33,325 nucleotides of DNA from Planctomycetota bacterium (lineage in GTDB: Bacteria; Planctomycetota; PLA2), in assembly GCA_027297745.1 (NCBI GenBank), contig JAPUHK010000054.1:1-33325 (forward strand), given 5' to 3'. A program made the position numbers and the translations under genes. The notes under the pieces are model-generated. The model worked only from the letters and a program-made list of their open reading frames with translations. It searched no databases and was not told the origin of the DNA. Each line of letters begins with the position of its first letter. Position 1 is the stretch's first letter. This document shows positions 14,624 through 24,761 of this stretch, in pieces.

Positions 14624-14641
14624 GCGGCGTCGCTAGCCTCC
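14617..14641. terminator. Imperfect dyad around facing TAG stops
   Basis: GGAG followed by TAG (14617-14623) faces CTA (14633-14635) followed by GCCTCC. GGAG pairs with CTCC and TAG with CTA, with a 2-nt GC bulge. This is weaker than the dyads at 791 and 10024, but it has the same arrangement of stop codons. Confidence 0.25.
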
Positions 14642-17524
14642 GCACCCGGCGAGAGGCTGCTCTTTGAGGAGGCGGGCATCGATCTCGGGCCAGAGCGCAC
14701 GGTACCGGTGCTGGATCCGTTTCATGGACTTCAGGTCCTTCGCTACCGGATCAATTTCCTTCATCATGCTACGGGTGACCCCGGGGCGCTTGAAGGCCCA
14801 GGGGAAGAGGTCTTTCGGGCGTGCGGCCGGTGCGCGCGGCGGCTTCTGGAACATCTCGGGCCGCGGCGGCTCCGCCATCATATGGAAGAGAGACCAGAGC
14901 GAGATCCACGCCTCCCGCCGGACGAGATACGCATCCCGTTGGTAGGGCGAGCCTTTCTGTTCCGTGTGCGTCAAGTGCCCCGTGAGGATGTCGAAGGTGA
15001 CCTTGTCTTTCATTCCCAGCAAGGCCATCGCCACCGCGGCGTCCTGCCGGATGTAGAGGTAGCGGTGCGTGTAGACCCGGCGATTCGTGACCAGCTGCTT
15101 GAGCCGGTCGAGTGGCATGTGCGCGCCGAGCGAAGTCAGCGCCGAGCGCTGCCTCACGATCTGCTCGAGCGGGACGTCTTGCTCGAGCAGGATCTCCTCC
15201 AGCGCCTTCCAGGTCTTCTCCCCCGCGTAGCGCTGCATCTTGAGGTCCACTGCCGCCGTCGTGCGCACGTGCTTGTCTTCCCTCGGATCGAGCAGGTACG
15301 AGATCAGCAGGTCGCGTACTTCGTTGACGGGCACTTGCTCGGATCGGCGTAGCACGCTCAGAGCAGCGCGGTGCACACTGGGCGTGTAACGCTTGTCCCT
15401 TGCTACGCGTAGGGCCGTTTCCCCCGCCGTGCGGGGTGCCAACTGCGGTAGGGCCCGGAGCGCGGCTTCGAAATCCAGTGTCTCTTGCTCGCCTTGAGGC
15501 GGTTTCTCCAGGATCCCCTGGACCACGGGCAGCGCCTCGCTCAGGCGGATCCGGCCAGCGACCTCGATGGCGAGGTGGCGCGCTGGTGCCCCGGGATCCT
15601 TCAGCCATTCCAGGGTGACGGTGCGCGCCTTCTTCTGGTAGCCCTCGGCGTAGTACAGCCTGGCCGTGACCGCGCGCCGTGCCGAGAGGGGCCCGGAACT
15701 AAAGGCGCGGCGGACGATGTGCGCTTGCTTCCATCTAAGCAGGATGGAGACGAGCCTCACCTTCCCGTCGATGTTGTCGTCGTCCTTGTTCAGGTACTCA
15801 CTCAGAACCTCGAGCGTGCCCGGCCGGTCACGAAGCACCTCGAGCTCGCGGCGCTCCCCCCGGATCATCTTCTTGTTGGTGTAGATCCCGTCGACGAGGC
15901 CCCGGGCCGCGCTCGCAGGGGCCGGCTTGCTCTCCGTAGGGGGCGGCGGTCCCGGCGGTCCCTTGTCCTTGGACTTCTCGCTCTTCCCTTGTTTGTCCCC
16001 CGCGGGTTCTTGCTTGTCGCCCGGGTCCGCGCCCTTGTCCGCAGCGTCCTTGTCAGCGGGGCCGTCCTTCGGGGGTGCGCCCGGCGGAGGCTTCGTGGCG
16101 CTCGGCGGGGGCTTCGTGCCTCCCGGCGGAGGCTTTGCGCCGCCCGGCGGCGGCGCCTGCGCCGCATCCTTGGCCTCTTCCGCGAGACGGGTCTCGATCT
16201 CGGCCCAGAGCGAGCGGTACTGCTGCTGCACGCGCTTCATGTACTCGAGGTCCTTGCTGTGCGGATCGAGCGAGGCCACCATCTCGGCGTTTACGCCGGG
16301 ACGGTTCTGGGCCCACGGGAAGAGGCGTGCGGGCCGCGTGGTCGACATGCGCGGCGCACGCTGGAACAGCTCCGGCTTGCTGGCGCCCGGGATCATGCCG
16401 AACAGCGTCCAGAGCGACAGCCAGGCCTCCCGCCGCACGAAGTATTCGTCACGCCCATAGGGGGAGTGCTCGGGCTCCACGTCGGTCAAGAGCTCCGTGA
16501 GGATGTCGAAGGTGAGCTTGTCCTTCATGCCCAGCATGGCCATCGCCACCGCGGCGTCCTGCCGGATGTAGAGGTAGCGGTGCGTGTAGACCCGGCGCTT
16601 TTTGACCAGCTGCTTGAGCCGGTCGAGGGGCATGTGCGCGCCGAGCGAATCCAGCGCCGAGCGCTGCCTCACGATCTGCTCGAGCGGGACGTCTTGCTCG
16701 AGCAGGATCTCCTCCAGCGCCTTCCAGGTCTTCTCCCCCGCGTACCGTTGCATCTTGAGGTCCACTGCCGCCGTCGTGCGCACGTTCTTGTCTTCCCTCG
16801 GATCGAGCAGGTACGAGATCAGCATGTCGCGCACCTCGTCGACCGGCACGTCGGGCACGCGCCGCAGCACGTCCAGCGCCGTCTTGCGCAGGCGCGAGGA
16901 GAAGGCCTTGTTCTTGGCCACGCTCACGGCCAGCGCACCGACCTTGTCCGGCGCCAGGTTCCGCAGGGCGCGCAGGGCCGCAGCGAAGTCGAGCGTCTCC
17001 TGCGGGCTCTCCGGCACGTGGGCCAGGATGGCCTCGATGTCGGGCAGCGCCTCCTCGATCTTCAACTGCGCCACGACGGCGATGGCGCGGTGGCGCGCGG
17101 GCGCGTTCGCGTCCCGGAGCCAGTCCAGGGCGATGGTTTCCGCCTCGTCGTGGTAGCGCTGCGAGCTGTAGAGGATCGTGGTCACGGCGCGCCGGGCCGA
17201 GGGCGGGCCGGAGGTGAAGGCGCGATGCACGACCCGCGCCTCCTTCCATTTCCACAGCAGGGTGACGATCCGCACCTTGCCGTCGATGTTGTCGTCGTCC
17301 CGGTTGAGGTACTCCTTCAGCACCTCGAGCGCGAGGCCGCGGTCGTTGAGGCCCTTGAGGTCCTGCTGGACCTTGATGGGGGCCGGCGTCGTATAGATCT
17401 CCTCGACCAGGCGCTCGGTCTGGGCGCGCACGGAGGTCAGCGTGAGGAACGCAGCGACGGCGATCGCGAGGACCGCGCCGGCGCCCAGGAGGATGCGGCT
17501 GTTTTGGGACTGAAGCAGTTTCAT
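14633..17524 (-). CDS. Membrane-anchored protein with an internally duplicated ~410-residue helical module
   Basis: 963 residues. An N-terminal signal anchor (ILLGAGAVLAIAVAAFLTLT, 11-30) is followed by module A (about 37-450), a low-complexity Pro/Lys/Asp linker (about 451-540, several PPPG-x-KPPP units) and module B (about 541-957). The modules align at a constant offset of 505 residues: DNIDGKVR at 78 and 583, DPREDK at 241 and 746, and both end in an 'xxRPGV...MKR.Q..YR.LW.EI..RL' tail. The content is alpha-helical and weakly HEAT-like (ALEEILLEQDVPLEQIVRQR). No catalytic motif is seen. Residues about 242-337 of A are nearly identical to B while the flanks have diverged. It would be anchored in the inner membrane and face the periplasm. 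Function unknown. Two facing TAG stops separate it from the isomerase gene. Confidence 0.85.
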   Translation of the reverse strand: MKLLQSQNSRILLGAGAVLAIAVAAFLTLTSVRAQTERLVEEIYTTPAPIKVQQDLKGLNDRGLALEVLKEYLNRDDDNIDGKVRIVTLLWKWKEARVVHRAFTSGPPSARRAVTTILYSSQRYHDEAETIALDWLRDANAPARHRAIAVVAQLKIEEALPDIEAILAHVPESPQETLDFAAALRALRNLAPDKVGALAVSVAKNKAFSSRLRKTALDVLRRVPDVPVDEVRDMLISYLLDPREDKNVRTTAAVDLKMQRYAGEKTWKALEEILLEQDVPLEQIVRQRSALDSLGAHMPLDRLKQLVKKRRVYTHRYLYIRQDAAVAMAMLGMKDKLTFDILTELLTDVEPEHSPYGRDEYFVRREAWLSLWTLFGMIPGASKPELFQRAPRMSTTRPARLFPWAQNRPGVNAEMVASLDPHSKDLEYMKRVQQQYRSLWAEIETRLAEEAKDAAQAPPPGGAKPPPGGTKPPPSATKPPPGAPPKDGPADKDAADKGADPGDKQEPAGDKQGKSEKSKDKGPPGPPPPTESKPAPASAARGLVDGIYTNKKMIRGERRELEVLRDRPGTLEVLSEYLNKDDDNIDGKVRLVSILLRWKQAHIVRRAFSSGPLSARRAVTARLYYAEGYQKKARTVTLEWLKDPGAPARHLAIEVAGRIRLSEALPVVQGILEKPPQGEQETLDFEAALRALPQLAPRTAGETALRVARDKRYTPSVHRAALSVLRRSEQVPVNEVRDLLISYLLDPREDKHVRTTAAVDLKMQRYAGEKTWKALEEILLEQDVPLEQIVRQRSALTSLGAHMPLDRLKQLVTNRRVYTHRYLYIRQDAAVAMALLGMKDKVTFDILTGHLTHTEQKGSPYQRDAYLVRREAWISLWSLFHMMAEPPRPEMFQKPPRAPAARPKDLFPWAFKRPGVTRSMMKEIDPVAKDLKSMKRIQHRYRALWPEIDARLLKEQPLAGCGG
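15033..15316 (-). repeat. Near-identical internal repeat, copy in module B
   Basis: By eye this 284-bp stretch differs at about 10 positions from 16548-16831, at a constant offset of 1515 bp. Sequence outside it, particularly towards the module's N-terminus, has diverged much more. Confidence 0.85.
16548..16831 (-). repeat. Near-identical internal repeat, copy in module A
   Basis: Partner of 15033-15316. It encodes the stretch from DPREDK to RQDAAVAMA. The longest runs without mismatch cover the QRYAGEKTWKALEEILLEQD region apart from two changes. Confidence 0.85.

Positions 17525-20640: not shown

Positions 20641-20648
<8 letters not shown>
20262..20648 (+). CDS. mce: Methylmalonyl-CoA epimerase
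   Basis: 128 residues, a normal length for this small vicinal-oxygen-chelate protein. It interconverts (S)- and (R)-methylmalonyl-CoA, linking the carboxylase product to the mutase substrate. The two beta-alpha-beta halves are visible: [19 protein letters not shown] with metal-ligand candidate His6, then [20 protein letters not shown] with His72/73, and LLELAEHE with Glu123. Glu49 in IELLAP fills a further ligand position. It starts in the mutase stop (ATGA) and overlaps the carboxyltransferase gene by 8 bp, which is tight operon packing. Confidence 0.95.
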
Positions 20649-22140
<1,492 letters not shown>

Positions 22141-22189
22141 GCCGTACGCCGGCAAGAGATAGCCGACGGCCGATAACTGCCCCGGATGT

Positions 22190-22331
22190 GTTGCACCGGC
22201 GCAGTGACCCGCAACGGGGGCGGGAGCGATAGTCCGGGTGAACGTGAACCCGGTGTTGCAAGGCCACCGAGGGTATGGAGGTTCCCCCTTTCTCGACGGC
22301 GCAGCCGTCCTGGGACCTCGCTCCCGCTCCC
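22190..22331. other. Highly structured intergenic segment, possible RNA element
   Basis: Helices seen by eye: GTTGC/GCAAC (22190-22194 with 22211-22215), and a 14-bp stem, 22216-22229 with 22318-22331, containing one G-T pair. Inside it are CCGGGT/ACCCGG (22234-22239 with 22248-22253) and GACGGC/GCCGTC with a 3-nt loop (22295-22300 with 22304-22309). GTGTTGCA occurs twice (22188 and 22253). This branched fold could be a cis-regulatory RNA in the 3' region of pccB or part of a larger RNA. The strand is undetermined. I do not recognise a family. Confidence 0.35.
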
Positions 22332-22341
22332 ACTCCGGTCA

Positions 22342-22492
22342 CGTTGAAAAAGAATGGGACGGGCAAGACCACGGGGGGCTGCCCGTCCCAGCTGGCGCTG
22401 GCTCCTCCCACTCTTCCGATGCCGGGATGCAGAGACGCAGCGGCATCGCTCGTTTCACCTTCTCGTCCTTGAACCAGCGCCTTTTCTCGCGC
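22342..22492 (-). ncRNA. Candidate small RNA with its own promoter and intrinsic terminator
   Basis: On the minus strand, TTGGCA (22520-22525), a 15-bp spacer and TAGAAA (22499-22504) could start an RNA near 22492. It would contain an 8-bp stem GGCGCTGG/CCAGCGCC (22474-22481 with 22394-22401) enclosing an 8-bp stem CGATGCCG/CGGCATCG (22441-22448 with 22417-22424). It would end with an 11-bp hairpin (22380-22390 with 22355-22365) followed by TTCTTTTTC, a good intrinsic terminator that only makes sense on the minus strand. Both neighbouring genes are on the plus strand, so no protein gene needs this terminator. A 35-codon ORF (ATG at 22446) lies inside but looks fortuitous. The alternative is a dispersed palindromic repeat. 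Confidence 0.35.
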
Positions 22493-22581
22493 CTTGACTT
22501 TCTACTTAAGCGAGCCCCGTGCCAATCGAGACCCTGCCCGGCGGCGCTTCCAACCCGTGTGGTTTCAGGCGCTTACAAGAA

Positions 22582-22616
22582 GGCGCGCAGCGGGCGCGCG
22601 AGCGGCGCTGCGCGCC
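22582..22616. repeat. Perfect 11-bp inverted repeat
   Basis: GGCGCGCAGCG (22582-22592) and CGCTGCGCGCC (22606-22616) with a 13-nt GC-rich loop. It lies in the non-coding stretch before the biotin carboxylase gene and has no U tract. Confidence 0.6.
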
Positions 22617-22660
22617 ATTGGTCGCACCATTGCCTCACGTTCGTCCCAAATGCACGGGTG

Positions 22661-22684
22661 AACTCCGCGTTCAACTCCGCGTTT
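22661..22684. repeat. Two-copy 12-bp direct repeat
   Basis: AACTCCGCGTTC (22661-22672) is followed directly by AACTCCGCGTTT (22673-22684). It is a short spacer-type tandem repeat in non-coding DNA, with no function visible. Confidence 0.6.
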
Positions 22685-22740
22685 CGCGTGCTCCAAACAG
22701 CGCGACTGCCTGGGGCGCTTTTGGGATAGGCTCTGCGCCC

Positions 22741-24258
22741 GTGTCGATCGAAAAGGTGCTGATCGCCAACCGTGGCGAGATCGCCCTGCGGGTCATTCGG
22801 ACCCTGCGCGAGATGGGCATCGGCTCCGTGGCGGTCTTCAGCGAGGCCGATCGCCGCGAGCTGCACGTGCGCGCGGCCGACGAAGCCTATCCGATCGGCC
22901 CGCCCGCCCCTGCGGAGTCCTACCTGTGCGTCGATCGCCTGCTGGAGGTGGCGGCAAAGGCCGGCTGCGACGCCGTCCATCCCGGCTACGGGTTCTTGAG
23001 CGAGAACGCCGCCTTCGCGCAGGCGGTCGAAGACGCGGGGCTGATCTTCATCGGGCCGAGCGCCCGGACGATCGCGCGCGCCGGGGACAAGCTGCAGGCC
23101 CGCAAGACCATGGAGGCGGCCGGCGTGCCAGTGATCCCCGGCGGCGAAGTGCCGGAGGGCGACCGCAAGCGGCTGCAGGCCGCCGCCAAGGCCTGCGGGC
23201 TGCCGGTCATGCTCAAGGCGGTCGGCGGCGGCGGCGGCAGAGGAATCCGCGTCGTTCGTGAGCCGGGAGAGCTCGAGGCCTCCTTCGAGCGCGCCTCTTC
23301 CGAGGCCGCGGAGGCCTTCGGCAATCCCGCCGTCTATGTGGAGCGCCTGCTGCAGTCGCCGCGCCACATCGAATTCCAGATTCTGGCCGACCAGCACGGA
23401 AACACGGTCCACATGGGGGAGCGGGAGTGCTCTATCCAGCGCCGCCATCAGAAGCTGCTCGAGGAGACGCCCTCCCCGCTGCTCGACGACTCCCTGCGTG
23501 AGCGCATGGGAGCGGCGGCGGTGGCGGCGGCGAAGGCGGTGGACTACCGCGGCGCAGGCACCGTGGAGTTTCTGGTGGACGCGCAGGGCGAGTTTTTCTT
23601 CTTGGAGATGAACACGCGCATCCAGGTCGAGCACCCGATCACGGAGCTGTGCTACGGGGTCGACCTCGTACGGCTGCAGATCGAGGTGGCCGCCGGCGCG
23701 AAGCTCCCCTTTGCGCAGAGCGACCTGCGCTCCAAAGGGCACGCCATCGAAGTGCGCTTGACCGCCGAAGACCCCGAGGCCGGCTTCCTCCCGGTGACCG
23801 GCCGCGTGCGTGCCTTGCGACTGCCGCAAGGGCCGGGCGTGCGAGTCGACTCCCACCTCTTTCCGGGGCAGGAGATCAGCCTGCACTACGACTCGATGCT
23901 CGGGAAGATCATCGCCTGGGGCGGCACGCGCGATGAAGCTATCGACAAGCTGTGCCGCGCGCTGGTGGAGATGCGTGTGGTCGGTCTGAAGACGTGCGCA
24001 CCGCTCCTGCTGGCGCTCTTGCGCGATGAGCGTTTCCGGCGGGGCGATGTGGACACGACCTATCTCGAGAGCTTCGTCAAAGACCCCCAGTGGAGCCGGC
24101 CGCCCCAGTACGGCGGTCTGGCCGCGGAGTTGCCCGCAGTGCTGACGGCCGTGCTGTACGCGCACCGGCGTCAGGGAGCGGCGCGCGCCGTGCGCTCCGG
24201 GCACGGCGGAGGCGGCCGCCGTTGGCTGGACGCCGGCCGCCGCGACGCGCTGCGATGA
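22741..24258 (+). CDS. pccA: Biotin carboxylase subunit of acyl-CoA (propionyl-CoA) carboxylase
   Basis: 505 residues from GTG 22741, where the family's N-terminus begins (SIEKVLIANRGEIALRVIR). The frame is open upstream through non-coding sequence. It uses ATP and bicarbonate to carboxylate biotin. Motifs: HPGYGFLSENAAFA (80-93), the ATP-grasp Gly-rich loop AVGGGGGRGIRVV (160-172) with Lys159, MGERECSIQRRHQKLLEETPS (225-245), and FLEMNTRIQVEHPITE (287-302) with catalytic Arg/Glu residues. The C-terminal ~50 residues are poorly conserved and Arg/Gly-rich. It has no biotinyl domain, which is supplied by the next gene, overlapping as ATGA. TAGGCT (22727-22732) ends 8 nt before the GTG. By context it pairs with the carboxyltransferase upstream, but it could also serve another carboxylase (accC-like). 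Confidence 0.93.
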   Translation: MSIEKVLIANRGEIALRVIRTLREMGIGSVAVFSEADRRELHVRAADEAYPIGPPAPAESYLCVDRLLEVAAKAGCDAVHPGYGFLSENAAFAQAVEDAGLIFIGPSARTIARAGDKLQARKTMEAAGVPVIPGGEVPEGDRKRLQAAAKACGLPVMLKAVGGGGGRGIRVVREPGELEASFERASSEAAEAFGNPAVYVERLLQSPRHIEFQILADQHGNTVHMGERECSIQRRHQKLLEETPSPLLDDSLRERMGAAAVAAAKAVDYRGAGTVEFLVDAQGEFFFLEMNTRIQVEHPITELCYGVDLVRLQIEVAAGAKLPFAQSDLRSKGHAIEVRLTAEDPEAGFLPVTGRVRALRLPQGPGVRVDSHLFPGQEISLHYDSMLGKIIAWGGTRDEAIDKLCRALVEMRVVGLKTCAPLLLALLRDERFRRGDVDTTYLESFVKDPQWSRPPQYGGLAAELPAVLTAVLYAHRRQGAARAVRSGHGGGGRRWLDAGRRDALR

Positions 24259-24761
24259 AGTACTTCGCGCAAGTGGGGGACAAGCGCTTCGAGTGCGCCG
24301 TCGAGACGGGCAACGGGAGCACGTTCGTGCGCGTCGACGGCCGGCGCTACCGCGTGGATTTGGAGCACATCGCCGCGACGGACGCTTATAGCGTGCTCGT
24401 GGATGGACTGAGCTACGAGTTCGCGTTGCACGACGGCGGCGAGTGCATCGAGTTGACGGGCGCCGCCGGGCACTTCGAGGTGCTCGTGGAAGACGAGCGC
24501 ACCCGCGCCGCCCGCGCCGTCGCCGCGCCTCCCGAAATGCAGGCCGGCCCGCACCGCGTATCCTCGATGATGCCCGGCATCGTGCGCGAGGTCCTGGTGC
24601 AGCCCGGGCAAGAGGTTCAGAAGGGCACGCCGCTACTGATCCTCGAGGCGATGAAGATGCAGAACGAGATCCGCGCCGACCGTCCCGGAACCGTCGAGCG
24701 CGTGCACGTTCAACCCGGCGCGACGGTGGAAAAGGGTGCAGCGCTCGTGGAGCTCTCGTAG
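24255..24761 (+). CDS. Biotin carboxyl carrier protein
   Basis: 168 residues. The C-terminal biotinyl domain (about 100-168) contains the biotinylation motif EAMKM with Lys134, preceded by MPGIVREVLVQPGQEVQKG and followed by the mirror-image hairpin (VERVHVQPGATVEKGAALVEL). The N-terminal ~80 residues form a beta-rich segment like the linker domain of propionyl-CoA carboxylase alpha chains. The biotin carboxylase and carrier therefore look like a two-gene split of a PccA-type chain. The start overlaps the biotin carboxylase stop (ATGA). The next gene begins within its last codons. Confidence 0.95.
   Translation: MKYFAQVGDKRFECAVETGNGSTFVRVDGRRYRVDLEHIAATDAYSVLVDGLSYEFALHDGGECIELTGAAGHFEVLVEDERTRAARAVAAPPEMQAGPHRVSSMMPGIVREVLVQPGQEVQKGTPLLILEAMKMQNEIRADRPGTVERVHVQPGATVEKGAALVELS

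Follow-up and report, generated by a model that had tools for sequence, protein, structure and literature searches.

A probable palindrome island, centred on one copy of a dispersed intergenic repeat, at the pccB-pccA junction of a Planctomycetota bacterium

Introduction

REP elements and REPINs are short intergenic palindromes, specific to particular lineages, whose stems contain alternative complementary residues (PMC3733652, PMC3116915). REP elements are mainly located in tandem or convergent spacers near the 3' ends of genes, and the roles proposed for them in this source include termination, mRNA stabilisation and DNA supercoiling (PMC3733652). One of their ends bears a GTAG or CGTC tag, and their stems mostly consist of 6-9 bp. 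Two other kinds of elements enter the comparison below, the MITEs, which are non-coding, dispersed and palindromic overall, and the intrinsic terminators, which consist of hairpins with a T-tract located just after stop codons.

The DNA analysed here, subsequently called the window, is a stretch of 33,325 nucleotides from a Planctomycetota bacterium, the assembly of which (3.7 Mb, 312 contigs) is about 94% complete. It carries a propionyl-CoA cluster in which a mutase gene (PF01642) is followed by a gene of the glyoxalase superfamily, probably coding for a methylmalonyl-CoA epimerase, and then, on the plus strand, by pccB (20641-22140), the carboxyltransferase subunit of propionyl-CoA carboxylase (PF01039, E 3e-183), by pccA (22741-24258), the biotin carboxylase (PF00289, PF02786, PF02785), and by the biotinyl carrier gene (24255-24761, PF00364). 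Around the junction of pccB and pccA, the other genes of the cluster abut or overlap. The original prediction had singled out a helix-rich gap of 600 bp at this junction as a candidate for new structured RNAs, and the gap (22141-22740) is real, pccB ending at 22140 and pccA starting with a GTG at 22741. The hairpin that occupies its core belongs to a dispersed repeat which, set against the elements described above, is a new REP-like family and not REP in the strict sense.

The non-coding gap and its hairpins

The G+C content by codon position is flat in the gap, in contrast with the strong periodicity of the flanking genes, and the two longest open reading frames of the gap are devoid of any Pfam match; a coding gene at this place was rejected on these grounds. 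No recognised RNA family had been seen there from the sequence; a search of Rfam 15 agrees, with no match at the gathering threshold and only chance-level matches below it. A known riboswitch is rejected on the same absence of an Rfam match, and 6S RNA is rejected as an identity because the 6S RNA of the source genome sits elsewhere.

All eight helices picked out by eye in the original prediction occur in the gap, the longer ones having been recomputed, and the shuffled-sequence test that it proposed places the helix content beyond chance: six perfect helices of at least 8 bp were counted for 1.46 +/- 1.15 expected, a number reached by none of 300 dinucleotide shuffles, together with two 11-bp Watson-Crick helices for 0.02 expected. 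Taken alone, the 14-bp helix, in which a G-T pair is allowed, is not rare (22/300 shuffles). The whole gap folds modestly better than its shuffles (z = -1.45 on the plus strand, -2.53 on the minus strand), and the subregion 22200-22345 more strongly (z = -2.99 and -3.56, respectively). Since helices of at least 11 bp are about 12 times richer in the intergenic than in the coding DNA of the source genome, part of this enrichment is ordinary; some hairpins of the gap are among the longest found in the spacers of that genome. The gap also holds a GC-rich 11-bp palindrome, GGCGCGCAGCG...CGCTGCGCGCC (22582-22616), with a weak T-rich tail on the minus strand, its short DNA matches elsewhere reflecting a similarity between GC-rich palindromes.

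A dispersed repeat with hexamer arms

Among the models derived from a single sequence, R1 gave nothing convincing, and the covariance model R2, covering 22202-22344, revealed a repeat family, with five further places in the source genome (E between 8e-4 and 0.07) and a single marginal match (E 0.09) in 16 relatives of the same order. The repeat consists of a GTTGC...GCAAC box followed by (GGGARC)n...(GYTCCC)n arms made of degenerate hexamers, with loops of about 6-103 nt between the arms depending on the copy. In several copies a conserved 19-nt box A, TTGCTCGCARGCTCGCAAC, directly precedes the arms; seven of the nine matches to box A within 4 mismatches adjoin hexamer arms, and all of these seven are intergenic. 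The order of the paired hexamer tracts is constant, the G-arm standing before the C-arm in 14 cases and after it in none.

In the window, the counterpart of box A is a GTTGC...GCAAC box on the plus strand (22190-22215), which corresponds to the 5-bp helix, has a longer spacer and agrees with the box A consensus only at its ends. It is followed by the hexamer-armed hairpin (22216-22331, plus strand), whose arms (22216-22229 and 22318-22331) pair over 14 bp with one G-U on the plus strand and enclose a long loop of 88 nt, in which two inner hairpins (22234-22239/22248-22253 and 22295-22300/22304-22309) are located; an outer GTGACC/GGTCAC pair (22204-22209/22337-22342) extends the structure. Judged by their sequence, the 5-bp and 14-bp helices (22190-22331, probably to 22342) appear to form one copy of the dispersed intergenic palindrome. 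From the end of the box into the arm (22210-22229), 19 of 20 positions of the window agree with the consensus of the other copies, which is the best agreement in the sample. All seven sites within 3 mismatches of this consensus are intergenic; 384 kb of coding DNA contain no such site, and 816 kb of other genomes a single one. The other strong hairpins of the gap are single-copy and do not belong to any repeat.

The repeat was found at about 20 places in the sampled stretches of the source genome and at essentially none in 39 relatives. The 12-mer GGGARCGGGARC occurs 42 times in the source genome vs 23 times for the reversed pattern, and stays below its own reversed-pattern control in the relatives (6 vs 10 in G003, for example). 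Thirty-five of its 42 copies were counted as intergenic, as compared to about 10% of intergenic DNA in the sampled sequence, a proportion to be read with the simple gene caller that defines intergenic status and with the choice of some of the stretches for holding the 12-mer. A hairpin model built from 13 copies (R3) yielded at least 22 matches at at least 11 places in the source genome, two of them (C128 and C22) being new and outside its training set, as against 0-3 per genome among the matches listed for the 39 relatives; the window copy is not listed by this model. A literature search for the hexamer, of shallow coverage, found nothing relevant.

With respect to the pairing of the arms, an arm-swap test detected no in-register pairing beyond the generic complementarity of the hexamers (p = 0.51), and the positive pair counts are biased, the members having been chosen because they pair, so that they are no proof of covariation. 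The arms are of low complexity as well, so some of their similarity could be convergent. Two of the copies (L228 4354-4390 and L129 9580-9621) contain at least four GGG triplets at 3-nt spacing and might adopt a G-quadruplex instead of a hairpin. A repeat of a different design, a 21-bp tandem repeat of 3.7 copies (16078-16154), occurs within a HEAT / vitellogenin-N-like gene on the minus strand of the window (14633-17524).

Comparison with REP elements, MITEs and terminators

The family shares with REP elements a palindrome present in many intergenic copies and placed in tandem or convergent spacers near the 3' ends of genes: 13 of 15 copies lie in such spacers (P = 0.04), and the positions of the 15 copies range from just ahead of a stop codon to 94 nt beyond it. 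It differs from them by its stems, hexamer arrays of about 12-20 bp with loops of tens of nt, and by the lack of a GTAG or CGTC tag; by eye, GTAG stands just before box A in only two of seven copies (L221 and L231) and is absent from the window copy. In an assembly about 94% complete, no RAYT flanked by the same palindrome was found, the sole Y1_Tnp match of the genome having other flanks. It is this absence of both the tag and a matching RAYT that keeps the family apart from REP in the strict sense. A link between the hexamer repeat and the Y1 transposase was accordingly rejected, the flanks of the latter carrying GTAGGGGCGCACC...TGTGCGCCC, a different palindrome with GTAG. This transposase, a RAYT-like protein encoded by a 176-aa open reading frame (L242, G000:C93), is flanked by GTAGGGGCGCACC-TATG-TGTGCGCCC, and its palindromes represent another REP family of the same genome, of a more classical type with the GTAG tag.

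The repeat shares with MITEs a non-coding, dispersed and overall palindromic nature, and its arms form inverted repeats; its ends are not sharply conserved, a target-site duplication was not established, and no parent insertion sequence was found. Intrinsic terminators resemble it by their position, but a T-tract is absent after either arm of the hexamer hairpin of the window.

The pccB-pccA junction in related genomes

Four other genomes of the family (G001-G004), whose pccA proteins are about 66-72% identical, were available for comparison. In G002, pccB and pccA are 46 bp apart, and most members of the neighbouring family have a spacer of about 18 bp. In G001 and G004 the junction extends over 1.9 kb and holds a plus-strand gene (L118 and L116), of which the copy of G001 has an ARPP-1 match. 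The junction of G003 (L117) extends over 1.2 kb and holds a minus-strand gene resembling pyridoxamine-phosphate oxidase (PNPOx-like, pdxH-like). With unrelated genes in sister genera (L116, L117, L118), the junction behaves as a recurrent insertion point. At the DNA level, no homologue of the gap of the window was found elsewhere in the source genome or among 40 relatives, apart from short matches of GC-rich palindromes, and the structure of the gap is not conserved in the sister genomes. A 23-nt motif on the plus strand, CGCCGGCAAGNGATANCCGACGG (22147-22169), is common to the same gap of G003 (pairwise E 4.5e-4) and finds a full match only in the window genome and G003 among 99 genomes. This motif, 21/23 identical in G003, has the potential to form a hairpin, and could possibly be an operator or a remnant of an ancestral spacer.

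The probable pccA promoter and the minus-strand hairpin

On the plus strand, the gap contains TAGGCT (22727-22732), 8 nt before the GTG of pccA, the probable -10 box of a leaderless promoter. The pccA gene of the window is devoid of a Shine-Dalgarno sequence, and a TANNNT box occurs 6-8 nt before the start codon of pccA in all five members of the family, as TAACTT at 6 nt in G001, G003 and G004, and as TACGTT at 6 nt in G002. In a 229-kb sample of the source genome, such boxes are threefold enriched 6-11 nt before start codons (15 vs 4.8 expected, p = 1.4e-4), a peak across the sampled contigs which suggests a frequent occurrence of leaderless mRNAs in this lineage. The boxes, which are consensus matches and not mapped starts, suggest that pccA is transcribed leaderless.

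On the minus strand, the segment 22390 to 22345 resembles an intrinsic terminator, with an 11-bp stem and a 14-nt loop (22390 to 22355) followed by a T-rich tail TTCTTTTTC; it was classed as terminator-like on its GC-rich stem and the tail ATTCTTTTTC, and is one of 13 T-tailed sites of this kind in 229 kb of the source genome. Next to it, a helix that attains 11 bp only on the minus strand by means of one U-G (22481-22471/22404-22394) encloses a hairpin (22417-22424/22441-22448); helix and terminator are possibly parts of one minus-strand RNA, a candidate some 140 nt long (22481 to 22345). Elsewhere in the genome, a (GGGAAC)n hairpin copy stands directly beside a T-tailed terminator-like hairpin on the minus strand, their order being that of the window (L129 9560-9712). 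Another locus (L136 13891-13934) shows a strong 20-bp hairpin with the tail GCTTTTTTCG, about 30 nt before the start of a gene, possibly an attenuator or the end of a small RNA.

Alternative explanations

The original prediction had left a choice between control of carboxylase subunit expression, a trans-acting RNA and a palindrome island. Control of pccA by a cis-regulatory leader of the riboswitch or attenuator type would suit a strongly folding region upstream of this gene. Yet the leaderless promoter box 8 nt before the start, with similar boxes in the four sister genomes, indicates that the gap is probably not the 5' leader of pccA; as the plus strand has no T-tailed terminator, the structure is not conserved in the sister genomes and no known riboswitch is matched, such a leader is highly improbable. 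An untranslated small RNA of the minus strand, which would run from near or upstream of 22485 to the terminator and have its target in trans or in read-through transcripts, is in our opinion unlikely, though less so than the leader. The T-tailed 11-bp hairpin is not preceded by any minus-strand gene, the 22394/22471 helix is completed by its U-G pair on this strand alone, the fold is compact (z = -2.26), and a second copy of the repeat (L129 9678-9712) directly adjoins a terminator-like hairpin of the minus strand. However, the fold of the plus strand is nearly as good (z = -2.09), no TANNNT box occurs on the minus strand between 22345 and 22820, no relative rises above noise in 16 genomes of the order (best other E 0.018), and the sequence has no Rfam match and is not 6S RNA.

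The gap might also be what decay has left of a gene or insert that formerly occupied this variable junction, with its hairpins as leftovers. Both the ARPP-1-like and the pyridoxamine-phosphate-oxidase-like genes of the sister genera and the 23-nt motif in common with G003 agree with such a past, but a tblastn search with the junction proteins of the relatives revealed no remnant in the gap (best E 0.06), no Pfam match occurs there, and leftovers would not be expected to include some of the longest spacer hairpins of the genome; we hold this origin to be improbable. What fits best is a palindrome island, made up mainly of one copy of the dispersed repeat, to which a terminator-like hairpin and a promoter are added. 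A new regulatory RNA is not demonstrable in the gap.

Conclusions

The gap is, in our opinion, quite probably a palindrome island that occupies a variable junction of the operon and has as its core one copy of a dispersed repeat, found in this lineage alone among the genomes compared. The element would have spread in the manner of a non-autonomous repeat of the REP or MITE type, and its insertion between pccB and pccA would be tolerated since pccA possesses a promoter of its own. At the 3' end of the pccB transcript, the element may act as a stem-loop that stops 3' exonucleases or signals where the transcript ends, a role suggested by its position and favoured by the location of the copies near stop codons, as for REP elements. 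More tentatively, box A and the hexamer-array hairpin could constitute an undescribed class of non-autonomous palindromic repeats, not mobilised by a RAYT, whose arms change by hexamer units while the G-arm-first order is kept.

What looked like an orphan regulatory RNA is probably a repeat copy, a pitfall often met in the prediction of structured RNAs from one genome at a time. Should the family prove mobile without a RAYT, a search for its mobiliser could be made. Within this bacterial family, the pccB-pccA junction tolerates inserts, probably because pccA carries a leaderless promoter.
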